Notes: generated by a model from the sequence alone, not told the origin. Counted from the stretch's first letter, positions 1,272 through 12,670 are shown. The stretch is DNA of 17,255 nt from a bacterium (GCA_024278215.1 JAJRTR010000013.1:1-17255); one strand, 5' to 3'. Numbers and translations: made by a program.

Positions 1272-1298
1272 CACCCCGTCCGCCCGATACAAAGTATT

Positions 1299-1477
1299 GA
1301 GCCAATTGCAAAATTATGTTCGTAGCGAGGCCGAACGAAATTTTTCAGAAGCAAGGCGGAGGTGCAAAATCCCCGCAGGCGTACTCGTCGAGTACGTTGA
1401 GGATGATTTTGTGCCGACAACGCGGCTATGGACAATTGCAGCCGACCGCAGCCGAATCAGAATTTTGCAATTGGCTC
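1299..1477 (+). mobile_element. MITE-like palindromic repeat, copy 1
   Basis: A 179 bp element. Its ends are perfect 17-bp inverted repeats, GAGCCAATTGCAAAATT (1299-1315) and its complement (1461-1477). It is flanked by a direct TATT (1295-1298 and 1478-1481), read as a 4-bp target duplication. The element is an imperfect palindrome centred at 1388: an inner arm pairs 1361-1371 with 1405-1415, and a central stem pairs 1378-1387 with 1389-1398 (core GTACTCG/CGAGTAC). Copies 2 and 3 in this window match it at about 90% and 96% by hand count, in the same orientation. It encodes no transposase, so it would be non-autonomous. It lies 27 bp after the glycosyltransferase stop. Confidence 0.85.
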
Positions 1478-1506
1478 TATTGCACTTTGCAAAAGAGCTG
1501 GTTTGA
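1474..1506 (+). terminator. Hairpin overlapping the right end of repeat copy 1, possible terminator
   Basis: GCTCTATTGCA (1474-1484) pairs with TGCAAAAGAGC (1488-1498), 10 of 11 bases, around a CTT loop, followed by a T-rich TGGTTTGATTCTT. The left arm uses the last bases of the repeat, so the insertion appears to have lengthened a pre-existing TTGCA/TGCAA stem. It could end the transcript of the upstream glycosyltransferase gene. The stem is AT-rich and the T-run is broken, so confidence is low. Confidence 0.35.
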
Positions 1507-1535
1507 TTCTTACAAAATATTAAGGAAAGTTTAAG

Positions 1536-1565
1536 TTGACTAATACCCTCGTCCGGGGATATAAC
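1536..1565 (+). promoter_or_regulatory. Candidate sigma70-type promoter
   Basis: TTGACT (1536-1541), an 18-base spacer and TATAAC (1560-1565), each one base from consensus. It would start transcription near 1572 and give a leader of about 125 bases before the strong ribosome binding site at 1683-1688. It would serve the chimeric ORF and the membrane-protein gene after it. Confidence 0.5.
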
Positions 1566-1696
1566 GGAAATATGATAAGTTTTCCGAATCGAATCAGATT
1601 TATTCCGAAATACACAACAAGGTGTCGAGATCAATTGATATTTTTCTTTCGGTCGTGGTCTGAAACAGAAACAGTATGTGAGAGGAGGTGAGTCTA

Positions 1697-2074
1697 ATGC
1701 AGATAACATTTGACCCCAGCGCCGTTGCCATGCCTTTATATCTGCCCGGACAGCAACAGGGATTACAGCAGATGCAACAGAGCGTAGGTAAAAGCGAGAA
1801 CCCCGCGGAAGAAGCCGCTGAACCCCGCGATTGTATTTTCGACCGTTTTTACCGTGTAGACAAGGCGCGCTCGCGGGAGATGGGCGGTGCGGGGCGGGGG
1901 TTGTCTTTCGCCCGCCGGGCTGTCGAAGCCAATGGGGGGAACATCGAAGAGGAAACCACAGAGGGAAAAGGTGAAAAGAAATGGAAAAACCATACAATCG
2001 AGTTAAGTCGATTCCTCTATCGGACATTGCTGTTTTTGTTGCGGTTTGCTGGATTGTCGCCGCACTTTTATTAA
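1697..2074 (+). CDS. Chimeric small ORF carrying a histidine-kinase C-terminal fragment (likely remnant)
   Basis: A 125-residue ORF starting at ATG 1697, 8 bases after AGGAGG (1683-1688). Residues 1-46 are Gln/Pro/Glu-rich and match no family I recognise. Residues 47-84 ([10 protein letters not shown]... to ...EANGGNIE) are the end of a histidine-kinase HATPase_c domain: the F-box and the G2-box region, here GGAGRGLS where GxGLGL is usual. The dimerisation His, N-box and G1-box are all missing, so it cannot be a working kinase. After GKG (about 1972) the frame leaves the kinase and runs 94 bases inside the next gene. It looks like kinase debris fused behind a small expressed ORF. A short regulatory peptide cannot be excluded. 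Confidence 0.5.
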
Positions 2075-3348
2075 GTCCCTTTTTCGGGATCAACTGGTTT
2101 GCACCGGGTGATTTCAGCTATTCGGACGCCATGTACTATCACGGTGTCATGGTACCGGTTCTGATCCTTCTCTATCTTATAACACAGAAAACGCTCCACC
2201 TGAAAGTAGTGAATGAGCGAGTCTATTATGTGTGCGCGATACTTGCCGTCCTGTTCGTCGGCGCCGGGTCCGTCTTCAGTAGCGACGAAGGAATGTCCAC
2301 CGCCGTCATTGTTCAGATCATCGGCATGGTAATGACCGATTGCCTCGGTATAATCCTGTTGATCGGCATGGCGGCCCCAGCCCTGAAAAAGGATGCGAAA
2401 GAGAGAAAAACAGGTGCGGCGTTCCGGCTTCTGTTTTTCTCGATCGGCATGATTCTTATCGCAGCGCCTTTCGGACACCTTGCCGGATGGTGTCACGACA
2501 TAGGGATCGGAACCGTCCCCGGAACAAACGCACTGCTTAACACCGTCGGTATGACCCCGGCCGATTTCCAGGATGGGCTTACGGCATCTCACTCGCACCT
2601 TATTGTTGCCGCTCTTCTGTGTGGTCTGGCCGCTGTAGCGGCTATTTATTTCCAGTATCAGGCCCGCGCCGGCTGGAGAAAACGCATAAGCGACACCGGC
2701 TTATGGGTAACGCTTATCAGTCTCCTGTCGGCAACAGGCATTTATGTTGTTTCCGCTGTGATCGGCTGGGAGCCTCCGACGTTTTTCGTGTCGGGTCCAA
2801 GCGGCATTCCGCTCGACGACATAGTCTTATCAGCCGGACAAATCGGCATACTTCTGCTTATGGTGGGGCTTTCCGGGCGTTTGGAGCACAAAGGCGGGAA
2901 ATCATTTTCTCCACTCAAGGCAGACATTCGTATCGCCGTTTTCGTCAACTGGATAGCCGGATTCGCGGGCTCGGTACTGCCGGGCATCTTCATAGAACTC
3001 AACGAAGGCTTTTACGGAGCAGGTGAATCCCCGGCGCCCGGCGCTCTTAACGATAACATTTTTATACGTGCACACCTGCTGTACTCGTTTTTCCTTCTGC
3101 CTGTGTTCCTTGCTGTTCTGCTTGCCGTCGGAAGCAAATACAACAACCGCCCGGAACGACACACGTGGGCGAGGCTCTTTGCACGGGCCTCGGTTTTCGG
3201 CATGGCCACCGGGCTGGCAGGTGAGATACTGTGGTTTACAACTAACATTGACGGTTTTTTTGTCGCCGCCGTGTTTATTATGGTTGTCACACTTACAGCA
3301 GGTATAATAAGCCTGTGGCCTTGTGCGGATGCAAGTGATTTGGGATAG
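1981..3348 (+). CDS. Histidine-containing polytopic inner-membrane protein, function unknown
   Basis: A 455-residue protein with roughly 11-12 hydrophobic helices. The start ATG 1981 follows AAAGGTGAAAAG. Several histidines lie at or inside predicted helices: H54 in [11 protein letters not shown]166 and H172 in [10 protein letters not shown]204 and H206 in [13 protein letters not shown], and H365 in IRAHLLYSF. HxH at a helix start followed by small and hydrophobic residues resembles the haem-ligand helices of haem-copper-oxidase/NorB-like proteins, but I cannot align the full signature and no copper or tyrosine site is evident. It lies 102 bp upstream of an ABC importer operon in the same direction, so a role linked to that substrate is possible but unproven. 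Confidence 0.75.
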
Positions 3349-3450
3349 GCCCTTCAGGACGATCCCGTGCCGACATGCCGTCGCAAAAACTTTATGGCAA
3401 AAGCCGGTGAGTTCAGTAGAATAAACGATAAGCAGAAGGAGGCTTCAAAC

Positions 3451-4470
3451 ATGAAGAAGATTATGGTAGTAATCGCCATTACCGCCGCGGTGGCGATCCT
3501 GGGTTTAGGGTGCAGCGGAAAGTCGGCGAACAATAAAACCGTCACCGTCTACGTCTCCGAAGACCAGGTCTTCTCGGAACCCATACTCAAGGACTTCGAG
3601 AAAGAAACCGGCATAAAAGTCAAAGCGGTTTACGACACGGAAGAGGCAAAGAGCACCGGTTCCATGAACCGCCTTATCGCCGAGAAGAGCAACCCGCAGG
3701 CCGATGTCTACTGGGCCAATGAGCCGATTCGTGCGGAAGTTCTTAAACATAAGGGAGTCTCGGCTCCGTACACTTCCCCGAACGCCGCGGATATTCCGAA
3801 TGTATTTAAGGACCCGGAGGGATACTGGACAGGTTTTTCGGCCAGGGCCAGGGTGCTTGTCGTCAACAAAAACGTAAAAGACAAGCCGCAATCCATCAGC
3901 GCCTACACGGACCCGCGCTGGAAAGGGCGGGCGGTTATCGCCAATCCGCTTTTCGGAACTACAACGTCCGAAGTCGCCGCTCTGTTCACCATCTGGGGAG
4001 ACGAAAAGGCGAAGGCGTTCATGGCCGGAATGAAAAAAAACGGTGTCGCGGTATCAACAAATAACGGCGAAAGCGCGGATTTTGTCGCCGCGGGGCAATA
4101 TGATTTCAGTCTCGTGGACAGCGACGACGCGGTGAACCGCATTAGACAGGGTAAACCCATTGAAATGATCTACCCGGACCAGGGGCCGACCGGCCTGGGC
4201 GCTTTCATCGTGCCCAACGCCGTTCTCCTCATCAAGGGTGCGCCGCACCTGGAAAACGCAAAAATATTGATCGACTACCTGCTCTCAAAAGCGACGGAAC
4301 GCAAGCTGGCATTCGCAGACTGCGCACAGATTCCCCTGCACCCTGGTGTCGAGCTGCCTCCGGAAGTCAAGCCTGTCGAGAGCATCAGGGTTATGAAGGT
4401 CGATTATGCCGATGTCGCGGCAAAGATGGTCGACACACAGCCAATGCTTAAAGAGTGGATGGGGCTCTGA
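3451..4470 (+). CDS. ABC importer solute-binding lipoprotein, FbpA/AfuA-like family
   Basis: A 339-residue receptor. ATG 3451 follows AAGGAGG (3436-3442); the frame is open further upstream but has no comparable site. MKKIMVVIAI opens a signal peptide ending in LGLGC, so Cys21 should be lipidated and the protein anchored in the membrane. The mature part (VTVYVSEDQVFSEPILKDFE..., DVYWANEP, YWTGFSARARVLVVN, GPTGLGAFIVPNAVLL) is the type-II periplasmic-binding fold of the ferric-iron/thiamine/phosphonate receptor cluster. The permease and ATPase genes follow directly. The segment where FbpA has its metal-binding Tyr-Tyr reads LVDSDDA (221-227), so ferric iron is not a safe substrate call. Confidence 0.88.
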   Translation: MKKIMVVIAITAAVAILGLGCSGKSANNKTVTVYVSEDQVFSEPILKDFEKETGIKVKAVYDTEEAKSTGSMNRLIAEKSNPQADVYWANEPIRAEVLKHKGVSAPYTSPNAADIPNVFKDPEGYWTGFSARARVLVVNKNVKDKPQSISAYTDPRWKGRAVIANPLFGTTTSEVAALFTIWGDEKAKAFMAGMKKNGVAVSTNNGESADFVAAGQYDFSLVDSDDAVNRIRQGKPIEMIYPDQGPTGLGAFIVPNAVLLIKGAPHLENAKILIDYLLSKATERKLAFADCAQIPLHPGVELPPEVKPVESIRVMKVDYADVAAKMVDTQPMLKEWMGL

Positions 4471-5253
4471 ATGGCAAGACGCGCCACACTCGCAACCGCC
4501 GCCATATTGCTTGTTGTAATCGGTCTTGCGCCTGTGGCCGCCATGCTTGTTAAAAGTGTGGTGGCAGATGGGCATTTCAGCCTTGCGGCCTACAGCGGGC
4601 TGCTGTCCTCCGGCCACGAGTGGCGTCTTGTTAATCACAGTTTCCTTTTGTCGACGATCGTCACATTATCCGCTACGGCGGTGGGATTGCCGCTGGGGAT
4701 ATTACTCTCAAAAACAGACCTTCCGTTTCGCCGGTTTTTTACCTTCATTTTTATTATTCCGCTGCTGGTCCCGCCATACATTACCGCAGTCTCATGGTTC
4801 TACCTCCTGGGCAAGGAAGGCTTTCTTACAAGGCATCTCAGCCCGTCCCTGGCGGAAGCCGTCAGTGGGCGTCTTTTCGGACTGCCCGGCTGTGTGCTTG
4901 TGCTGTTTTCCACTTTCCTGCCTGTTGTGATGTTGCTGACCATGACATGTCTCAGGACCGTCAATCCGCGACTTGAAGAAGCGGGGCGGCTTGTTGCCGG
5001 CTGGCCGGGTGTTCTCAAAGGGATCGTCATACCCCTGATCCTTCCGGGTGTTCTGCTGGCCGCGATGCTTGTATTTCTGCTGACATTCGGCGAATTCGGC
5101 GTGCCCGGATTCCTCAGGTACGACGTCTTCCCGGTGGAAAGTTTTACCCAGTTTTCCGCCTTTTACAACTTCGGAGCGGCGACGGCGGCAGCAGTCCCAC
5201 TCGCCGTTGTCACATTCCTGATTATCGGTGCGGAAAAGCTTTTTCTCCGCTAA
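4471..5253 (+). CDS. ABC importer permease, N-terminal half (interrupted fused permease)
   Basis: A 260-residue membrane protein starting at ATG 4471, immediately after the TGA of the receptor gene. It contains one permease unit. The cytoplasmic coupling loop (EAA motif) is EEAGRLVAGWPGVLKGIVIP, followed by PGVLLAAMLVFLLTFGEFGVPGF. The family usually encodes two such units in one ~530-residue protein (FbpB type). Here the frame ends at TAA 5251-5253 right after EKLFLR, the usual inter-unit linker. The same frame continues without another stop to 6057. It may be a true split, a nonsense mutation or a sequencing error. Its partners are the receptor and ATPase on either side. Confidence 0.85.
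   Translation: MARRATLATAAILLVVIGLAPVAAMLVKSVVADGHFSLAAYSGLLSSGHEWRLVNHSFLLSTIVTLSATAVGLPLGILLSKTDLPFRRFFTFIFIIPLLVPPYITAVSWFYLLGKEGFLTRHLSPSLAEAVSGRLFGLPGCVLVLFSTFLPVVMLLTMTCLRTVNPRLEEAGRLVAGWPGVLKGIVIPLILPGVLLAAMLVFLLTFGEFGVPGFLRYDVFPVESFTQFSAFYNFGAATAAAVPLAVVTFLIIGAEKLFLR
5251..5253 (+). other. In-frame TAA inside the permease gene
   Basis: The codon lies between LFLR and RTYQLRPVTDGE, where fused FbpB-type permeases carry a continuous basic linker. Both halves are in frame 1, and together they would give 527 residues plus this codon, the usual length of the fused protein. A single base change from CAA, AAA or GAA would explain it. Confidence 0.75.
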
Positions 5254-5265
5254 AGAACATACCAG

Positions 5266-6057
5266 TTGCGGCCCGTCACAGACGGCGAACGATTACCTTT
5301 GATAGAACTCGGCCGTTACCGGAAACAGATGTTCATTACGGTTGGATTGTTCTGTTTTCTGATCGTGATCATGCCGATACTCGTGCTTGTCGCCCAATCG
5401 GCACATCTTTCCGCCTATGTCGAAGCATTCGGCAGGGCTGAGGACAGTCTTTTGCGCAGCATGGCCTACGCCGCCGCGGGCGCATCGCTGCTCGTCCTGC
5501 TCGGCTTCTTCTCCGGCTATCTCATACACACCAGAGCGCTGCCTTTCTGGCGCGGCGTCGATTCGATAACCATATTCCTTTTCGCCCTTCCAGGTACTGT
5601 TATCGGTATCGGACTGATCAGCTTATGGAACAGGCCGTGGACAAACTTTATCTATGCGACCCCGGCGATTATAATCCTCGGCTACCTTGCCAGGTACACC
5701 GCTCTCACAAGCCGGATCACCGTGTCCGCACTCGGCCTGATCCCGCCCTCGATGGAGGAAGCCGCGCAGATAGCGGGCGCGGGATGGCCCCGGCGTATGG
5801 CGATAATCGTCGCGCCCATGACAAAGACAGGCCTTGCGCTCGGCTGGCTTGTCGGTTACATCTTCTGCCTCCGGGACATGGGCATCACCATGATGGTCTA
5901 TCCTCCCGGCCACGACACACTGCCGGTCCGCATCTTCACGCTCATGGCCAACGGTTCGCCGGAACTCATAGCCGCCCTCTGCGTGCTCATGATCTCCGCC
6001 ACGCTCCTGCCTTTAACCGCGGGAGGAATAATATTCAGTCTGAGAGGTAATCATTGA
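5266..6057 (+). CDS. ABC importer permease, C-terminal half (interrupted fused permease)
   Basis: The second permease unit, 263 residues if started at TTG 5266. No good ribosome binding site precedes this TTG. ATG 5329 (MFITVGLFC) with GGAAAC just upstream is another possible restart. Its coupling loop is EEAAQIAGAGWPRRMAIIVAP (residues about 162-182), and the rest is hydrophobic helices. It is in the same frame as the preceding half and only 12 bases after its stop, so it most likely descends from one fused gene. It overlaps the ATPase start by 4 bases, which suggests translational coupling. If expressed alone it would pair with the first half as a heterodimer. Confidence 0.8.
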   Translation: MRPVTDGERLPLIELGRYRKQMFITVGLFCFLIVIMPILVLVAQSAHLSAYVEAFGRAEDSLLRSMAYAAAGASLLVLLGFFSGYLIHTRALPFWRGVDSITIFLFALPGTVIGIGLISLWNRPWTNFIYATPAIIILGYLARYTALTSRITVSALGLIPPSMEEAAQIAGAGWPRRMAIIVAPMTKTGLALGWLVGYIFCLRDMGITMMVYPPGHDTLPVRIFTLMANGSPELIAALCVLMISATLLPLTAGGIIFSLRGNH

Positions 6058-6770
6058 ACATCATCGAGTTTGAAAACGTGACAAAACATTACAGCGGCCA
6101 AACAGCGCTGCACGACTTTTCGCTGGCGGTTGCCGAGGGCGAGCGCATCGTTATCCTCGGCCCTTCCGGTTGCGGAAAAACCACCGTGCTCCGGCTTCTG
6201 GCAGGATTCATTCCCCCTGATTCCGGGGCAATAAAAATAGCGGGTGAAACAGTTGCCGCCGATGGCAGAACCCTGAAAGAACCGGAGCGGCGCAATCTGG
6301 GAATGGTGTTTCAGGACCTGGCGCTCTGGCCGCATCTGACAGTAAAGGGAAACCTGGAGTTCGGCCTGAAGGCGAGAGGCGTGCCGAAAGCCGAAAGAGA
6401 AAACCGCATCTGCACAATACTGGGGCTTGTGCAGATGGAAGAATACGCCGGCGTCCGACCGGCGAATCTGTCGGGCGGTCAGCAGCAGCGCGTCGCTCTC
6501 GCCCGCGCGCTGGTATTGAATCCCCGCGCGCTCCTCATGGATGAACCTCTCTCCAGCCTCGATCTTGAACTCAATATACGACTCAGAAAAGAAATCCTCG
6601 AACTCCACAACAACATCGGGTTTACACTTCTCTATGTCACCCACGACCACGACGAGGCTTTCGACATCGGCACACGCATCGTGATTATGAAAGACGGAAA
6701 TATTGATATGGCCGGTTCAGTCGAAGAGAGCCGCGAGTATTTCGAGCGGACAGGCCCGAATCTCTGTTAA
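6054..6770 (+). CDS. ABC importer ATPase, FbpC/PotA-like family
   Basis: A 238-residue ATP-binding subunit that powers the importer at the cytoplasmic face. All motifs are intact: Walker A GPSGCGKTT (36-44), Q-loop Gln87 in GMVFQDLALWP, signature LSGGQQQR (139-146), Walker B ALLMDEP (159-165), D-loop SSLD and H-loop His197 in LLYVTHDHDEA. The start TTG 6054 overlaps the permease stop (TTGA) and has GAGAGGT (6042-6048) upstream. Family members such as FbpC or PotA usually have ~350 residues with a C-terminal TOBE domain; this one ends soon after the core and lacks it, so substrate-dependent feedback through that domain is not expected. Confidence 0.92.
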   Translation: MNIIEFENVTKHYSGQTALHDFSLAVAEGERIVILGPSGCGKTTVLRLLAGFIPPDSGAIKIAGETVAADGRTLKEPERRNLGMVFQDLALWPHLTVKGNLEFGLKARGVPKAERENRICTILGLVQMEEYAGVRPANLSGGQQQRVALARALVLNPRALLMDEPLSSLDLELNIRLRKEILELHNNIGFTLLYVTHDHDEAFDIGTRIVIMKDGNIDMAGSVEESREYFERTGPNLC

Positions 6771-6835
6771 TGCGAAAAAACCGACTCTTCAGAACGAACC
6801 GCATCCGACCGATGAAATTCAGAATCCGGATAATA

Positions 6836-6860
6836 AGGAAACCGGACGCTCCGGTGTCCT
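6836..6860 (+). terminator. Stem-loop after the ABC importer operon
   Basis: AGGA-A-ACCGGA-CGC-TCCGGT-G-TCCT forms a 10-bp stem with one A/G mismatch and a CGC loop, 66 bases after the ATPase stop. No T-run follows, so it may be an mRNA 3' end protector or a weak terminator. The rest of the ~245-base gap before the next gene shows nothing I recognise. Confidence 0.35.
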
Positions 6861-7016
6861 GTAGATGATGAAAGATAAGAGATCGTTCATGAACATCCTC
6901 ACGCCTTCGAAGCGGCGCGGCGGGTTTGAAGGGAACAGAGACAGAGAGTACAATAGTAAGAGACGCTGTTTTCGGCAGTTGCCGTGCAGCACCGGTCCGA
7001 ACAGGAAGCCAGCGTT

Positions 7017-7709
7017 ATGCCTTCATACGAAAAAAAAGAATCGCCGCCTCTCTTCAAATGTACGGAAGTGCTCGGTCTTTGCCGTGCTATGTGTTGCAAA
7101 CTCGGTGGCGGCGTGGCGCTCACTCCCGATGAGATCAGGTCGGGCAAATACCTGATGGAGTACCTCTGTATCGAAAAGAAGGAACAATGCACAAAAGACA
7201 TCGAGTGCTACCACAAGATTGTCCAGCTTAAAACAGAAAACGGAATATGCGTATATCTCGGCGATGACGACCACTGCACGATATATGAAGACAGGCCGCG
7301 GATGTGCCGCAACTACCTGTGTTCCACAGGCCACTGGAACGACTGGAAAAAGGACGTGCGGAACTATGTCGACCGCGAGTTGCTGAGGCTGAACCCCGAG
7401 CTGGTTTTCACGCACAACCCGGTGCGGCGGCTCTCGGCGGCTTTTCTTGTGCCCGATGAAAAAAGGATATTCCTTCTGGTGAACGACCGTAGCCTCTGCG
7501 ACGATGTCATGTACGGCGGCGAGTTCGAGTGGCCGGCGGCGGCGGCTTCCGATGTCGAAGCTGTTTATAAATCATTCGACGGCCTGAAGACACTAGGCGA
7601 CATCGAGCGAGGGATCGCAGACAGGATGGGCGCCGGTTCGGTCGAAGGATTCCGGCGCCTTGTGTTGCTTCTCACAGGCCAACATCTCCTGATAAATCTG
7701 ATGCGGTAG
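7017..7709 (+). CDS. YkgJ-type cysteine-cluster protein with PqqD-like C-terminus
   Basis: A 230-residue protein. ATG 7017 follows AGGAAG (7003-7008); a GTG at 6984 would add 11 residues. The N-terminal domain has C15, C22, C26 and C27 (FKCTEVLGLCRAMCCKLGG) and then GICVYL...HCTIYEDRPRMCRNYLC with C78, C87, C97 and C102. That is the cysteine layout of the YkgJ/UPF0153 family, thought to bind zinc or an iron-sulphur cluster. Residues about 182-228 (YKSFDGLKTLGDIERGI, then FRRLVLLLTGQHLLINL) resemble a PqqD-like winged helix, a peptide-recognition domain in radical SAM systems. The gene converges on plsC with a 19-bp gap. The physiological role is unknown. Confidence 0.75.
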   Translation: MPSYEKKESPPLFKCTEVLGLCRAMCCKLGGGVALTPDEIRSGKYLMEYLCIEKKEQCTKDIECYHKIVQLKTENGICVYLGDDDHCTIYEDRPRMCRNYLCSTGHWNDWKKDVRNYVDRELLRLNPELVFTHNPVRRLSAAFLVPDEKRIFLLVNDRSLCDDVMYGGEFEWPAAAASDVEAVYKSFDGLKTLGDIERGIADRMGAGSVEGFRRLVLLLTGQHLLINLMR

Positions 7710-7728
7710 CACGGTTTTTTCGATGGCG

Positions 7729-8457
7729 TTACTTCGTCAGGGCGCTGCCGATGATTTCCTTCACCTTCGCCATTAGTTCGCCCATATTTTCCAGAGAGTA
7801 GCCGTTGATGTCGACAGGCTTGTGAATCGTCATCGACGCGCGGCCCGGAAACAGCGCCCATGTCGTGGGCGGCAGTATCCGCATAGTTCCGTCCAGCGTC
7901 ACCGGCAGAATCGGCAGTCCCATTTCAAGCGCCATGTAGAACGCCCCTTTTTTGAATTCGCCCAGTTTCCCCGTCATGCTTCTTGTGCCCTCGGCGAAGA
8001 ACATCATGGACACGCCGCCCCTGATGCGTTCTTTCGCTTCGGCGATGGATTTTATAGCCGCCTCGGTGTTGGAGCGGTCGACGAAAACATTACCGACCCG
8101 CACACTTGAATAGCCGAGGAAGGGGACTTTGCGCAATTGTTTCTTCATCACCCAGCGCAGGTTCATCTTCAGGTGTCCGAAGATCGACAGCATGTCGTAG
8201 ACGCTCTGGTGGTTCGCCACAACGACATAAGATTGCGCATGGTCGATATGCTCCCGGCCCGTGACCGTGAGAAACATTGGTGTGATGCCGCAGACGAACC
8301 GTGCCCACCAGCCGCCGAAAAACATGCACGCCACCTTTTTGCTGAAGTACGAAGCGATAATCGCGCTCGTTCCGAAAACCGCCATAGATATGCCTACCAT
8401 CGGGATAACAAACAGCCACTTGTACGGCTGGTATAAAACACGCCAGAATGTATTCAT
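7729..8457 (-). CDS. plsC: 1-acyl-sn-glycerol-3-phosphate acyltransferase (PlsC family)
   Basis: A 242-residue membrane-associated acyltransferase that makes phosphatidic acid from lysophosphatidic acid in phospholipid synthesis. The family motifs appear in order: NHQSVYD (82-88, catalytic HX4D), VFVDRS (124-129), FAEGTRS (154-160, substrate phosphate binding) and LPILPVTLDGT (about 181-191). One or two hydrophobic segments precede motif I (residues 14-65). The ATG at 8457 (minus strand) has AGGGCGA upstream. The length is typical for the family. It stands alone on the minus strand, facing the YkgJ-type gene. A related lysophospholipid acyltransferase specificity is possible. Confidence 0.92.
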   Translation of the reverse strand: MNTFWRVLYQPYKWLFVIPMVGISMAVFGTSAIIASYFSKKVACMFFGGWWARFVCGITPMFLTVTGREHIDHAQSYVVVANHQSVYDMLSIFGHLKMNLRWVMKKQLRKVPFLGYSSVRVGNVFVDRSNTEAAIKSIAEAKERIRGGVSMMFFAEGTRSMTGKLGEFKKGAFYMALEMGLPILPVTLDGTMRILPPTTWALFPGRASMTIHKPVDINGYSLENMGELMAKVKEIIGSALTK

Positions 8458-8603
8458 TTCAAATCGCCCTGCGTCTCTTCGTTTTTCAACTATGGATGAA
8501 AAACCGTGAAAATAAAATCAATATACCAATTATGTAATAAAACGTAATCTCAATTTTCAGCCTGGGATAGCTCCACGTTGAACCCGGTTATTCTACACTA
8601 TAT

Positions 8604-8819
8604 TTGCTAAAAGGAAAAGAGTTTCAGCGGCAAAAGTCAAATGCAAAGAAGCATATCAGGATACGCGCAGGCGTCGAAGCGACAAACAGCGGACTCGAAC
8701 GCCGCCACGGACTGGCCCGGCTGGAAGTCCGTGGCCCATCTCAGGCAGAACCGGCCGTATACACGAAAACAACCGCCTGCAACATAAAGCGCTACCTTCA
8801 GTATGCGCTGAAAAAATGA
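8604..8819 (+). pseudogene. Transposase C-terminal remnant
   Basis: A 71-residue open frame. Its last ~55 residues (RIRAGVEATNSGLERRHGL, LARLEVRG, AVYTKTTACNIKRYLQYAL) look like the C-terminal end of a DDE transposase of the DDE_Tnp_1 type, including the Glu of the catalytic triad in GVEATNS. The N-terminal catalytic part is absent upstream (8458-8603 is AT-rich and non-coding), so this is a decayed insertion sequence. Repeat copy 2 begins 8 bases after its stop. The orientation of the repeat end does not match an IS right end, so the repeat seems to have inserted beside the remnant rather than belonging to it. Confidence 0.65.
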
Positions 8820-8827
8820 TTATCATA

Positions 8828-9005
8828 GAGCCAGTTGCAAAATTATGTTCGGAGCGAGGTCGAACGAAATTGTTCAGAGCAAGACGGATGTGTAAAATCC
8901 CCGCAGGTGTACTTTTAGAGTACGTCGAGGACGATTTTATGCCGGCAACGCAGCTATGGACAATTGCAGCCGACCGCAGCCGAATCAGAATTTTGCAACT
9001 GGCTC
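8828..9005 (+). mobile_element. MITE-like palindromic repeat, copy 2
   Basis: 178 bp. The ends GAGCCAGTTGCAAAATT (8828-8844) and AATTTTGCAACTGGCTC (8989-9005) are perfect inverted repeats. They are flanked by CATA on both sides (8824-8827 and 9006-9009), a different target duplication from the other copies. It differs from copy 1 by about 17 substitutions and one deleted base. Several changes are paired across the dyad (outer arm A/T to G/C, inner arm C/G to T/A, centre G/C to T/A). It ends 38 bases before the rluB-like start codon and so forms that gene's upstream region. Confidence 0.85.
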
Positions 9006-9043
9006 CATAGAAAATCCTGAATTATTGGGCAATACTATTACAG

Positions 9044-9808
9044 ATGGCAGAAGAGAGATTGCAGAAGATACTTGCCGCCTGCGGGCTGGGCTCGCGCCGC
9101 GCGTGCGAGGGCCTGATATTCGCGGGGCGCGTCAGCGTCAACGGCGAAGTGGTCGTCGCACCGGGCACAAAAGCGGCGGCAGGCGTCGATAGAATCACTG
9201 TCGACGGCAAAGAGGTCAGGCCGCAGCAGCATGTCTACATCATGCTCAACAAGCCCGCCGACTGCCTTTGCGCGGCACGGGACCACAGGGGCAGGAAAAC
9301 AGTAATGGATTATGTGTGCGATGCACCGGTGCGTGTGTTTCATGTGGGCCGCCTCGATTACGACACGGAAGGGCTCCTGCTGTTCACGAACGACGGCGCT
9401 TTCAGCCAGCGGGTCACGCATCCGCGCCACAAAGTATTTAAAACATACAGGGCCGTTGTCAGGGGAGTGCCGGACGAAGAGACGCTGGACCGTCTGCGCG
9501 CCGGTATTGAACTCGACGACGGGCCGACAGCGCCCGCCGTACTGCGGCTGATCGGGACAACCACCGCAAAGGTGCGGCGCGTGAAAAAGAAAAATCGGCC
9601 ACCGGAAGAAATTGATGCCTCCGACATCGAGATAAAGATACGCGAGGGCCGCAAACGGCAGGTGAAGCGCATGTTGCGCGCGGTGGGCCATCCCGTGATC
9701 AGCCTGCGGCGAACCGCTATCGGGTCGCTCGAACTCGGCTCGCTCCCCTGCGGCCAGTGGATGCAGTTGACAAAGAGTGAAGCGGAGTCCGCACTGAAAA
9801 ATGAATAA
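9044..9808 (+). CDS. rluB: rRNA pseudouridine synthase, RsuA/RluB/RluE family
   Basis: A 254-residue enzyme that isomerises uridine in ribosomal RNA. Residues 1-48 (RLQKILAACGLGSRRACEGLI, GRVSVNG) form the S4 RNA-binding domain. The catalytic motif GRLDYDTEGLLLFTNDG (about 102-118) contains the nucleophile Asp105, and EGRKRQVKRMLRAVGHPV is the usual C-terminal motif. The extended basic loop VRRVKKKNRPP before the last strands is a small peculiarity. RluB (23S) fits best, but RsuA and RluE are close. ATG 9044 has no clear Shine-Dalgarno sequence. The upstream 40 bases are the edge of repeat copy 2. The stop overlaps the next gene's start, so the two are coupled. Confidence 0.88.
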   Translation: MAEERLQKILAACGLGSRRACEGLIFAGRVSVNGEVVVAPGTKAAAGVDRITVDGKEVRPQQHVYIMLNKPADCLCAARDHRGRKTVMDYVCDAPVRVFHVGRLDYDTEGLLLFTNDGAFSQRVTHPRHKVFKTYRAVVRGVPDEETLDRLRAGIELDDGPTAPAVLRLIGTTTAKVRRVKKKNRPPEEIDASDIEIKIREGRKRQVKRMLRAVGHPVISLRRTAIGSLELGSLPCGQWMQLTKSEAESALKNE

Positions 9809-10844
9809 TAAGGAAACAGGCATAACTTACACCCCAAAGGGCATTGCACTTGCCGTCACTTACGCCTGTCCTTCGATGTGTGATCACTGCAATATCCGTT
9901 TTAATGAAATAGACACTGCGGAGGAAATAACAGCAGACACCGCGCGGCGACTGCTCGGCGAAGCGAAAGCCGCCGGGCTGCACGCATTCCAGATCGTAGG
10001 CGGCGAGCCCACGCTCAAGCCCGAAACATTTGTCGAGATAGTCAGGGAGGGCAGGCGGCTGAGCATGAAGTGCCACCGACCGCCGACCAACTGCCGCATC
10101 GCCCGCGACGAAGCCGCGTTGCGGAGTTTCTTTTCCAGCCTGTCGGACGCTGGTTTCAGTGCCGGTTTCCGCATAAGCGTCGACCACTTTCACCGCCGTA
10201 TACCTCTAGAATATACCGCCGGTTTCATCTTCGCCGCCGCAGATTATTTCAACCTGAAACGATTCGCAATCGGATGCTGCGACATAGACGAAGACAGGTC
10301 GCGCCGGATGCTGGACAATCTTTGCAGGCTGTTGTGCGCGAAGGGATTCGAGTCGCGCGTCGGAGGAAACATGCTCGAAACGCCTGCCGGACGTATAAAG
10401 ATCGGTTTCTGGGCACCGACGAGACCGACGTGGAAACAGCTCCCGGACAGCGAGTTCCTGTTGAAAAAGGTGAGTTTGTCGGTACCGGATAAGCCCCGAT
10501 GGGGCAGGAGAGACGACATAGCGCCGTTCGGATGCCTCGGACCGAAGGGAGTGGGTTACCTGTGGGTCGAGCCGTCCGGCGCAGTCCGCGCATGTTGCGG
10601 AAACGCATGTCAGTTTATCGACGCGCTTGTCATCGGCAATATATATGATGAGACACTCGGAGAAATGATAGACCGGGCGCGCGGCTCGGAACTTATGGAC
10701 GCGCTGGCGGCGGGCGGGCCTGTGGAAGCCGCATTGCGGGCCGGGACGCTCGATGCGCTCGAAAAAACATACACGCACAGGTGCGACCTGTGCCATGCGG
10801 TGCTGAATGACAGCAGGACGGCGGCTCGTTTCAACACCCCGTGA
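9801..10844 (+). CDS. Radical SAM protein with SPASM-like cysteine-rich C-terminus
   Basis: A 347-residue protein. CPSMCDHC (C23, C27, C30) is the CX3CX2C loop for the SAM-binding 4Fe-4S cluster, and GGEP (67-70) is the SAM-contacting motif. The C-terminal part has further cysteines at 245, 265, 266, 270, 328 and 331 (FGCLG, RACCGNAC, HRCDLC), as in SPASM/twitch domains that hold auxiliary clusters in peptide or protein modifying enzymes. ATG 9801 lies inside the end of the pseudouridine-synthase gene (8-base overlap), a sign of translational coupling. No precursor peptide gene is visible next to it, so the substrate is unknown. The enzyme class is sure; the SPASM label is likely. Confidence 0.85.
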   Translation: MNNKETGITYTPKGIALAVTYACPSMCDHCNIRFNEIDTAEEITADTARRLLGEAKAAGLHAFQIVGGEPTLKPETFVEIVREGRRLSMKCHRPPTNCRIARDEAALRSFFSSLSDAGFSAGFRISVDHFHRRIPLEYTAGFIFAAADYFNLKRFAIGCCDIDEDRSRRMLDNLCRLLCAKGFESRVGGNMLETPAGRIKIGFWAPTRPTWKQLPDSEFLLKKVSLSVPDKPRWGRRDDIAPFGCLGPKGVGYLWVEPSGAVRACCGNACQFIDALVIGNIYDETLGEMIDRARGSELMDALAAGGPVEAALRAGTLDALEKTYTHRCDLCHAVLNDSRTAARFNTP

Positions 10845-10913
10845 ACGGTCGCGCCGACCGGTTCGTTTCCAACCTTTCCCTACGACAAAACAAATCGGCG
10901 GCGGAAGAAGACA

Positions 10914-11041
10914 GGGTGTGCGACGCAAAAGCAGGTTTTTGCGAAAAGCGGGCAGGTACCGCAAAAGACAGCGTTGCCAGTCCCTGTTTTTCGCACATTA
11001 AAAATGTGGTTGTTTTTAACCCACTTTTATGTCGCACACTC
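10914..11041 (+). mobile_element. Second MITE-like element, 128 bp, with 9-bp target duplication
   Basis: The ends GGGTGTGCGAC (10914-10924) and GTCGCACACTC (11031-11041) are inverted repeats. Extended to 24 bases they match at 19 positions, and all five differences are transitions. Perfect 9-bp direct repeats AAGAAGACA abut both ends exactly (10905-10913 and 11042-11050). It has no coding capacity. Inside are a hairpin (CGCAAAA 10924-10930 with TTTTGCG 10937-10943) and a CACAT/ATGTG hairpin followed by T-rich DNA (10994-11017). The termini do not resemble the 179-bp family, so this is a separate element. The rest of 10845-10913 shows nothing else. Confidence 0.75.
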
Positions 11042-11057
11042 AAGAAGACAACGCCAC

Positions 11058-11087
11058 TTGACACGGGGGCGTCGAATATTTTAAAAT
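11058..11087 (+). promoter_or_regulatory. Sigma70-type promoter for the MarR-family gene
   Basis: A perfect TTGACA (11058-11063), an 18-base spacer and TAAAAT (11082-11087, 5 of 6 consensus bases). The start would be near 11094, about 24 bases ahead of the ATG at 11118. It lies just right of the 9-bp duplication of the 128-bp element. Confidence 0.6.
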
Positions 11088-11095
11088 CCGGATAG

Positions 11096-11108
11096 TCCAA
11101 TTATTGGA
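11096..11108 (+). promoter_or_regulatory. Dyad, candidate MarR autoregulatory operator
   Basis: TCCAAT-T-ATTGGA is a perfect 6+1+6 palindrome between the predicted start point and the MarR-family ATG. A wider inverted repeat, CGAATATT (11073-11080) and AATATTCG (11108-11115), overlaps it and the -10 box. MarR proteins usually bind such dyads as dimers to repress their own promoter. Confidence 0.45.
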
Positions 11109-11117
11109 ATATTCGGC

Positions 11118-11531
11118 ATGAAACAGGAAGTATCCGGAAAACTCTTTACACAGATCAAGCAACTCTACGAAAACGTGGAGATATACAGCGGTCAATATGC
11201 CGAACTCAACTCGAAGGAACACGGCATAATCAGGGCTGTCGACCGCATCGAGAACCCACGGGTCAGCGATGTCGCGCGCGAACTGGGCATATCCATGAGC
11301 ACGGCGAGCTGGTGCATAGACAAGCTCGATAAAAAGGGGTTTCTCAAGCGCCACCGCAGCGAGGACGATCGCCGAGCCGTGTTCCTCACTCTCACACGCA
11401 AGGGACAAACGATCGTCACACAGTTCGACGGCATATTCGAAAAACTCGCGGCCGCCGCGCGTGAAAATTTCTCGAAAGCGGAACTCGAGAATCTCGCGGA
11501 CCTGCTCGAACGTCTTTCAATAAAACGTTAA
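11118..11531 (+). CDS. MarR-family winged-helix transcriptional regulator
   Basis: A 137-residue DNA-binding regulator of standard MarR length. The winged helix-turn-helix spans about residues 30-95: VSDVARELGISMSTASWCIDKL (49-70) is the recognition part, and RHRSEDDRRAVFLTLTRKG (78-96) is the wing with the typical DxRR. Helices at both ends would form the dimer interface. ATG 11118 follows GGA (11106-11108) with a short leader carrying dyads that could be its own operator. Repeat copy 3 separates it from the transketolase genes, so they are probably separate transcripts. The inducer and other targets are unknown. Confidence 0.9.
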   Translation: MKQEVSGKLFTQIKQLYENVEIYSGQYAELNSKEHGIIRAVDRIENPRVSDVARELGISMSTASWCIDKLDKKGFLKRHRSEDDRRAVFLTLTRKGQTIVTQFDGIFEKLAAAARENFSKAELENLADLLERLSIKR

Positions 11532-11567
11532 GGGCCGCGTTTACATTATTAAAGCCGCTAAAGTAAT

Positions 11568-11743
11568 GAGATTGCAAAATTATGTTCGTAGCGAGGTCGA
11601 ACGAAATTTTTCAGAAGCAAGGCGGAGGTACAAAATCCCCGCAGGCGTACTCGCCGAGTACGTCGAGGATGATTTTGTGCCGACAACACAGCTATGGACA
11701 ATTGCAGCCGACCGCAGCCGAATCGGAATTTTGCAATTGGCTC
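11568..11743 (+). mobile_element. MITE-like palindromic repeat, copy 3
   Basis: 176 bp, about 96% identical to copy 1 and in the same orientation. The right end AATTTTGCAATTGGCTC (11727-11743) is intact. The left end lacks three bases (GAG then ATTGCAAAATT, 11568-11581). TAAT flanks it on both sides (11564-11567 and 11744-11747), a third different 4-bp duplication. The central stem GTACTCG/CGAGTAC is at 11647-11661. It lies 36 bases after the MarR-family stop and 75 bases before the transketolase start. Confidence 0.85.
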
Positions 11744-11759
11744 TAATGTATCCGCACCG

Positions 11760-11773
11760 GCGAACATGTTCGC
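11760..11773 (+). promoter_or_regulatory. Perfect 14-bp palindrome upstream of transketolase genes
   Basis: GCGAACATGTTCGC lies between repeat copy 3 and the transketolase ribosome binding site (AGGAGG 11803-11808). It could be an operator. It resembles the Gram-positive LexA box (GAAC-N4-GTTC) but has a spacer of only 2, so that assignment is not supported. Confidence 0.35.
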
Positions 11774-11818
11774 AAGTGCTTCGAAGTCAACAAAAACCAG
11801 ACAGGAGGTTATTCACAA

Positions 11819-12670
11819 ATGCTTCACAATTACCAATCTCGTGATGAACTGGTGGCATTCCTCAAACAGAAGTCGATAGAGGTGAGGAAAAAGATCATCC
11901 AGCTGGTAGTCACAGCGGGTGGCGGCCATGTGGGCGGCGGCCTTTCCATGACGGAGATTCTTCTCACGATGTACTGGCATATCCTTGACATCGACCCGAA
12001 GAACCCGAAGAAACCCGACCGCGACCGGCTCATACTCAGCAAAGGACACGGCGGTATTGGCATCTGCCCCGTGCTGGCCGATGTCGGCTACTACGAAGAG
12101 TCACTCATGAACGATTTCAACCAGTACATGAGTCCCTTCGGCATGCACCCCGACATGAACAAAGTCCCCGGCATCGACATGAGTACCGGTTCACTGGGCC
12201 ACGGACTGTCTGTCTGTGTCGGACTTGCCAACGGCGCACGCCTCAAAAACGAAAAGTGGCGCACTTTCTGCATACTCGGCGACGGCGAATGCAACGAGGG
12301 CTCCGTGTGGGAAGCGGCTATGTCCGCCGCCCACTACAAACTTGGCAACGTCACGGCCATAATCGACCGCAACAGGCTTATGATCGACGGACCGACAGCG
12401 GAAATCATGTCCATCGAACCGCTCGAGGACAAATGGAAAGCATTCGGCTTTGATACTAAAGTCATCAACGGACACGACTACAACGAACTGCTCGACACTT
12501 TCGAAAACCTGCCCGGCCCGGACAGCGACAAACCGGTCTGTGTTATATGCAACACGACCAAAGGGCGCGGCGTGTCCTTCATGGAAAACGAAGTAAAATG
12601 GCACTACGGCGGTCTGGACGAGGAAAGCGAAAAACAGGCTGTAAGCGACATAGAAAAACTGTCGCTCTGA
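11819..12670 (+). CDS. tkt: Transketolase, N-terminal (TPP-binding) subunit
   Basis: A 283-residue subunit that binds thiamine pyrophosphate. GGGHVGGGLSMTEIL (34-48) and SKGHGGIG (74-81) are transketolase signatures. GDGECNEG (154-161) with Asn185 in IIDRNRL is the TPP/Mg motif. Its partner half is encoded 42 bp downstream; together they equal a full-length transketolase of the non-oxidative pentose phosphate pathway. Split forms are common in anaerobes and archaea. ATG 11819 follows AGGAGG (11803-11808). 1-deoxyxylulose-5-phosphate synthase is excluded by the two-subunit layout and motif style. Confidence 0.93.
   Translation: MLHNYQSRDELVAFLKQKSIEVRKKIIQLVVTAGGGHVGGGLSMTEILLTMYWHILDIDPKNPKKPDRDRLILSKGHGGIGICPVLADVGYYEESLMNDFNQYMSPFGMHPDMNKVPGIDMSTGSLGHGLSVCVGLANGARLKNEKWRTFCILGDGECNEGSVWEAAMSAAHYKLGNVTAIIDRNRLMIDGPTAEIMSIEPLEDKWKAFGFDTKVINGHDYNELLDTFENLPGPDSDKPVCVICNTTKGRGVSFMENEVKWHYGGLDEESEKQAVSDIEKLSL

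Follow-up and report, generated by a model that had tools for sequence, protein, structure and literature searches.

Three copies of one short repeat lie between genes

The window, a stretch of 17,255 nucleotides analysed here as a whole, is contig 188 of a 4.55-Mb bacterial genome assembled in 207 contigs (G000). It carries three copies of a short repeat in one orientation, at 1299-1477 (179 bp), 8828-9005 (178 bp) and 11568-11743 (176 bp); a first-pass annotation had given these coordinates, lengths and local orientation correctly on re-reading. Upstream of copy 1 is a PIG-V-like mannosyltransferase gene (93-1271). Copy 2 separates a minus-strand acyltransferase gene from a pseudouridine synthase gene, whose start at 9044 is 38 bp downstream of the copy, and copy 3 separates a MarR-type gene from a transketolase gene pair, of which the transketolase N-terminal gene is nearest. 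These neighbouring genes confirm that all three copies are intergenic, as had been proposed. The features are as follows.

1295..1298, no strand: 4-bp target duplication TATT, left of copy 1 (from the sequence)
1299..1477, + strand: MITE copy 1, 179 bp, subfamily A, 2.2% from the subfamily consensus (from the sequence)
1299..1315, + strand: left 17-bp terminal inverted repeat of copy 1 (from the sequence)
1344..1434, + strand: conserved folded core of copy 1, CAAGGC-hairpin-AACGCAG layout (from models R1-R3)
1461..1477, - strand: right 17-bp terminal inverted repeat of copy 1 (from the sequence)
1478..1481, no strand: 4-bp target duplication TATT, right of copy 1 (from the sequence)
8824..8827, no strand: 4-bp target duplication CATA, left of copy 2
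8828..9005, + strand: MITE copy 2, 178 bp, subfamily B, 7.9% from the subfamily consensus
8828..8844, + strand: left terminal inverted repeat of copy 2, position 7 is G
8873..8962, + strand: conserved folded core of copy 2
8989..9005, - strand: right terminal inverted repeat of copy 2
9006..9009, no strand: 4-bp target duplication CATA, right of copy 2
11564..11567, no strand: 4-bp target duplication TAAT, left of copy 3
11568..11743, + strand: MITE copy 3, 176 bp, subfamily A, 3.4% from the subfamily consensus
11568..11581, + strand: left terminal inverted repeat of copy 3, shortened by the loss of CCA (3 bp)
11610..11700, + strand: conserved folded core of copy 3
11727..11743, - strand: right terminal inverted repeat of copy 3
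11744..11747, no strand: 4-bp target duplication TAAT, right of copy 3

The 4-bp duplications TATT, CATA and TAAT are different from one another and each is exact around its own copy, as first described. The perfect 17-bp ends claimed for all three copies are present in copies 1 and 2, where the G at position 7 of the left end of copy 2 is matched by a C in its right end, and absent from copy 3, whose left end reads GAG followed directly by ATTGCAAAATT after the 3-bp deletion of CCA. The element of about 178 bp codes only for short read-through ORFs, with no transposase in any copy, in agreement with the first reading, and with no coding remnant seen. Two window ORFs, 1165-1506 and 11566-11844, run through a copy (..IPAGVLVEYVEDDFVPTTRLWTIAADRSRI..); such read-through translations may appear in annotations as hypothetical proteins, and are then probably repeat artefacts.

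A high-copy family that has moved by transposition

Although the repeat had been described as a three-copy family, this number was far too low. The exact 17-bp end occurs 172 times in forward and 170 times in reverse orientation in the 4.55-Mb genome, and with up to two mismatches 334 and 338 times (672 matches in total), while the reverse-order control gave 0 in both searches. The element is present several hundred times in this genome, and the number in the assembly is a lower bound, many contigs ending within a copy. The contigs that we fetched (1.6 Mb) hold 175 distinct hits, 84 of them full-length, which make up 1.5% of this DNA; 54 hits are located less than 200 bases from the end of a fetched piece. 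The family ends are GAGCCAATTGCAAAATT, and many copies besides the first two of the window keep perfect 17-bp inverted repeats. Two subfamilies were distinguished, A (n=27, including window copies 1 and 3) and B (n=48, including window copy 2), and their median divergence from the subfamily consensus, 6.1% for A and 4.2% for B, argues against a very recent burst. None of the six genomes of the same order that we searched contains the 17-bp end. The shared orientation in the window does not extend genome-wide, since the 80 full copies divide into 43 plus and 37 minus.

The flanks of the copies record their insertion. An exact 4-bp duplication surrounds 55 of the 80 full copies, and 66 of the 80 have one with at most one mismatch, while left and right flanks drawn from different copies, as a control, agreed in 1.5%. 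Within this genome, the expectation that copies should be flanked by duplications, on which the first-pass annotation had staked its reading, was thus borne out for most copies at these frequencies. Furthermore, joining the flanks led to three paralogous empty sites that restore a single 4-bp target, at L160_3331 (TGTT), L159_15469 (GTAA) and L195_2621 (TAAC), with the target letters partly substituted in diverged paralogues. Together with the duplications, these single-target sites strongly support the proposal that the window copies arose by three separate insertions. The target consensus is symmetric (A..WC-WWWW-GW..T), the insertion flanks have 40% G+C versus 51% for the fetched DNA, and only 7 of 64 insertions (11%) fall in an ORF of at least 200 aa versus 81% of random sites. 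The element is therefore short, lacks a transposase gene, ends in terminal inverted repeats, occurs in many dispersed and mostly intergenic copies, and is accompanied by a target duplication of fixed length (4 bp) and by empty sites, and we firmly identify the three repeats as copies of a high-copy MITE.

Two further copies are unusual in form. A 46-bp element at L095:16952-16997, which has little beyond both ends and a TATC duplication, is either the smallest unit that still moves or a copy whose interior was deleted late. At L149:462-550, a copy is broken by the palindrome CCCGGATTTCTCACAAAGAAATCCGG.

IS5-like ends and the search for a transposase

The ends of the IS5-family elements ISNme1 (GAGACCTTTGCAAAA) and ISPg1 (GAGACCATTGCA) have been tabulated (PMC4596501), and the MITE end GAGCCAATTGCA is alike to that of ISPg1 at 10 of 12 positions and differs at 2 of 12. 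By this sequence comparison the MITE end resembles IS5-family ends, and mobilisation by an IS5-family transposase would be the most likely route. The same end form, GAG..CC..TTGCA(AAA), is found in the BrickBuilt and MITEPgRS elements of Porphyromonas gingivalis and in the ATR of Neisseria, which has ISNme1 ends, and these elements are likewise non-coding and intergenic (PMC4596501). For BrickBuilt_4, one 4-bp duplication (GAAA) with an empty site is reported (PMC4596501). In contrast, the BrickBuilt interior consists of 23-nt tandem repeats and is by description unrelated to the present interior, and the BrickBuilt group has 19 copies whereas the present family has hundreds (PMC4596501).

The first-pass annotation had placed a partner element in the same genome, and this was not substantiated: neither the profiles PF01609, PF13340, PF05598, PF13546 and PF07592 nor a direct reading of TIR pairs in the 1.6 Mb of fetched contigs revealed a transposase between such ends; for about 65% of the genome, coverage came from the profile searches alone. 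Matches to PF01609 in G000 correspond to three genes without these ends, which from our own reading of the sequences we take to be one IS4-like and two IS1634-like genes; PF13340, PF07592, PF13546 and PF05598 had zero matches in G000. TIR pairs 1.4-2.4 kb apart enclose ordinary genes. ISAzo13, considered as a parent on account of its ends, gave no match, and the ISAzo13 control genomes gave none either. Three loci, L152 (C48), L098:129-441 and L210:9217-9534, are decayed copies of one IS with internal deletions, presumably IS1634-like by our own reading; at L098, a MITE lies directly behind the IS remnant.

The same 17-bp end occurs in other lineages. Multi-copy MITE-like elements with this end and unrelated interiors are found in Simkaniaceae, Lentisphaera, Sphaerochaetaceae and Bryobacterales, the end occurs in lower numbers in Victivallaceae and Victivallis, and part of the elements show 4-bp duplications. 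Among 47 genome stretches with end matches, only the clustered or paired ones look MITE-like; the exact TIR matches in viral contigs, and most single ones in named genomes, seem to be accidental or to lie in coding sequence. In a Rhodospirillales genome (bin.668; L251-L255, L054, L073), ten contigs stop inside one element that starts with GAGCCAGTTGCAAAATTCTTGTTTTCCCGCG; its first 97-139 bases are 100% identical and its interior is absent from the assembly. This element is probably a recently active IS with the same end. Because the end is shared by MITE-like elements of several lineages and by the Rhodospirillales element, transposases for it probably exist in several phyla. The searches of these other genomes likewise found no transposase with these ends, a DUF772/DDE_Tnp_1 gene of the Rhodospirillales genome carrying other ends, and BLAST of plasmids and phages with the element, the Rhodospirillales end and the G099 elements described below gave nothing, or matches at E 0.1 or worse.

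In the mechanism that we propose, a DDE transposase supplied in trans, most likely of the IS5-family type, would cut and paste this non-coding element with its 17-bp inverted ends through a staggered 4-bp cut at AT-rich, symmetric intergenic targets. The transposase may now be lost or unassembled, or may come from another family than those searched.

A core shared with elements of another phylum

The interior of the MITE holds a core of about 90 nt with the layout CAAGGC-hairpin-AACGCAG. When the interior was compared by BLAST with 386 genomes, the only match beyond G000 itself was in G099, a genome of another phylum, where the matching DNA sits in an element with different ends, GAAGCGGTTTCATAAGTC (GAAGCGG ends; type X), with TA on both sides in 3 of 4 copies. 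Core identity between G000 and G099 is 78%, while the type X ends share nothing with GAGCCAATTGC. The relationship was recovered by a covariance model of the G000 core (R1), which detected the G099 elements at E about 1e-13, and by pairwise alignment of the interiors (z 15.4, with 0 of 200 shuffles as good). A second covariance model found six copies in G099 and, with modest matches (E about 4e-4), two in G393, a genome of the same phylum as G099. The core occurs in three contexts in G099, namely with GAAGCGGTTTCATAAGTC ends, with GAGCCTGTAACAAAATTATG ends close to those of G000 (L319), and in a third (L318), and in G393 with hairpin ends ACCTGAATCTTGCA. In G000, the weakest-scoring cores, inspected singly, have a GAGCC-type end adjoining on at least one side.

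The second model had no hit in 450 kb of other loci, and no Rfam family scored above its gathering score. Sixteen matches to the core motif in viral contigs were set aside, none having the element layout. G000 also has a second repeat family, about 180 bp long (TAACCCGCATATTTCACC ... AAATCCGGGTTA), with 45 hits in 1.6 Mb; L142:2162-2339, L173:14497-14637 and the L159:15646 region are examples, and its terminal hairpin is the palindrome that breaks the copy at L149. A third family, about 310 bp long and bounded by GAACTTGTGCGTTTTTCA and its complement, is located at L095:6555-6861, L148:13855-14162, L209:6641-6941 and L211:4145-4443.

The copies could in principle be structural or regulatory host repeats of the REP or ERIC kind, spread by recombination with no transposase, given that they are hairpin-rich, intergenic and of high copy number. 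The hairpin part of the second repeat family does resemble E. coli ERIC in one pairwise test (z 3.6, beating 200 of 200 shuffles). However, the covariance models link neither ERIC nor this second family to the core: R1 and R3 do not match E. coli ERIC (L294/L295), and the alignment of MITE family 1 with ERIC is no better than shuffles (z 0.2). As the 4-bp duplications and empty sites also speak against it, we consider this explanation highly improbable.

The core fold is conserved and compensated

The core folds into a lower stem of 8-11 bp and an upper stem of 8-9 bp, with a short step and then a 3x2 internal loop between them. In an alignment of 13 cores, 95% of the cells are paired and 20 of 27 pairs carry compensated double changes, with none of 500 shuffles reaching the observed pairing; when the partner was slid by 1-3 columns, pairing fell to 33-48%. 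Since this alignment (A4) was fitted to the structure of the model, so that the pair counts lean towards that structure, we also folded six sequences of five types singly, and these gave nearly the same geometry, with z of -3.0 to -4.7. Judged from these comparisons of sequence, the cores are homologous across the elements and their base changes are compensated. All types keep the 3x2 loop, which is asymmetric (NNA/GA), as well as the unpaired segments ACAAG and ACGCAG on both sides of the hairpin, and in L317 of G099 most of the upper stem is swapped for another paired sequence. Apart from the core, the interior of type X contains sequences complementary to the inner part of each end (10 and 8 bases), and subfamily A has one such copy of 8 bases; those in subfamily B and L319 are not above chance.

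Template-switch correction is established for inverted repeats, and the pairing could have been kept by such switching between the arms of a quasi-palindrome, or by gene conversion, with no selection on the strand. Switching would yield double changes such as those in L317, where the upper stem was exchanged wholesale, but it should also erase mismatches, and the 3x2 loop and the two unpaired segments persist in all types. We therefore regard this account as rather improbable.

Origin and possible role of the core

The usual account of MITEs derives them from an IS by deletion (PMC10969869), and an ordinary MITE of this kind with a neutral interior is an explanation that we take seriously, at somewhat less than even odds. 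The likeness to G099 would then reflect shared IS descent, or the horizontal transfer of one MITE whose ends diverged later. Covariation is weak within the G000 family alone (2 of 20 pairs), which fits a neutral interior, and the G099 copy with GAGCC-type ends (L319) makes an old common element possible. On the other hand, MITEs that depend on one transposase should keep their ends best, yet here the core is kept and the type X ends differ; type X lies between TA dinucleotides and not between 4-bp repeats; neutral DNA is not expected to have 20 of 27 compensated pairs and a kept mismatch loop; and no coding remnant was seen in the element.

Our main reading, to which we assign a probability of about 0.85, is that the family is a MITE moved in trans by a DDE transposase, likely of IS5 type, with a non-random folded core shared across phyla. 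Because the folded centre is common to elements of another phylum that have different ends, the data suggest that it has been conserved as a travelling module, as opposed to being leftover DNA. More than one type of transposon end would then have carried the core, and selection would act on its folded strand, probably in the form of RNA within read-through transcripts. More tentatively, and at a little under even odds, the core may be an ancient mobile folded module present over several phyla, repeatedly given new ends and moved by different transposase families, with the fold and not the sequence under selection. As to its role, a function as RNA in read-through transcripts is our foremost guess, if less than probable, and follows an analogy with Correia and ERIC, whose transcripts are processed (PMC10969869); a role of folded single-stranded DNA in aiding movement appears unlikely.

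Several named repeats share features with this family. Chunjie of Geobacter uraniireducens (178-235 bp) is similar by description in its size, conserved ends, direct repeats, mostly intergenic location and many partial copies (PMC10969869). ERIC of enterobacteria is intergenic, hairpin-forming and mobile, with hundreds of copies in some genomes (PMC10969869); its termini are TA (PMC2229807), as in G099 type X, whereas the present duplication is 4 bp. Correia/NEMIS of Neisseria, compared by description, is also a MITE, with a processed transcript hairpin and more than 120 copies in one genome (PMC2229807, PMC10969869), but has TA at its termini where the present family has a free 4-bp target. 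The present family is new, Chunjie, the closest candidate, being compared by description. Should the CAAGGC-hairpin-AACGCAG core be present in the Chunjie interior, a known MITE would belong to the core family. The literature that we examined does not describe a core that persists while its ends change.

The family matters for assembly and annotation, where contigs break in its copies and spurious ORFs arise. The covariance model provides a search tool, and the conserved loop a target for mutation. Bacterial MITEs are normally seen as IS remnants in which the ends alone are important; should the core, with its compensated changes across phyla, indeed exceed the ends in conservation, then in some MITEs the interior would be the part under selection.
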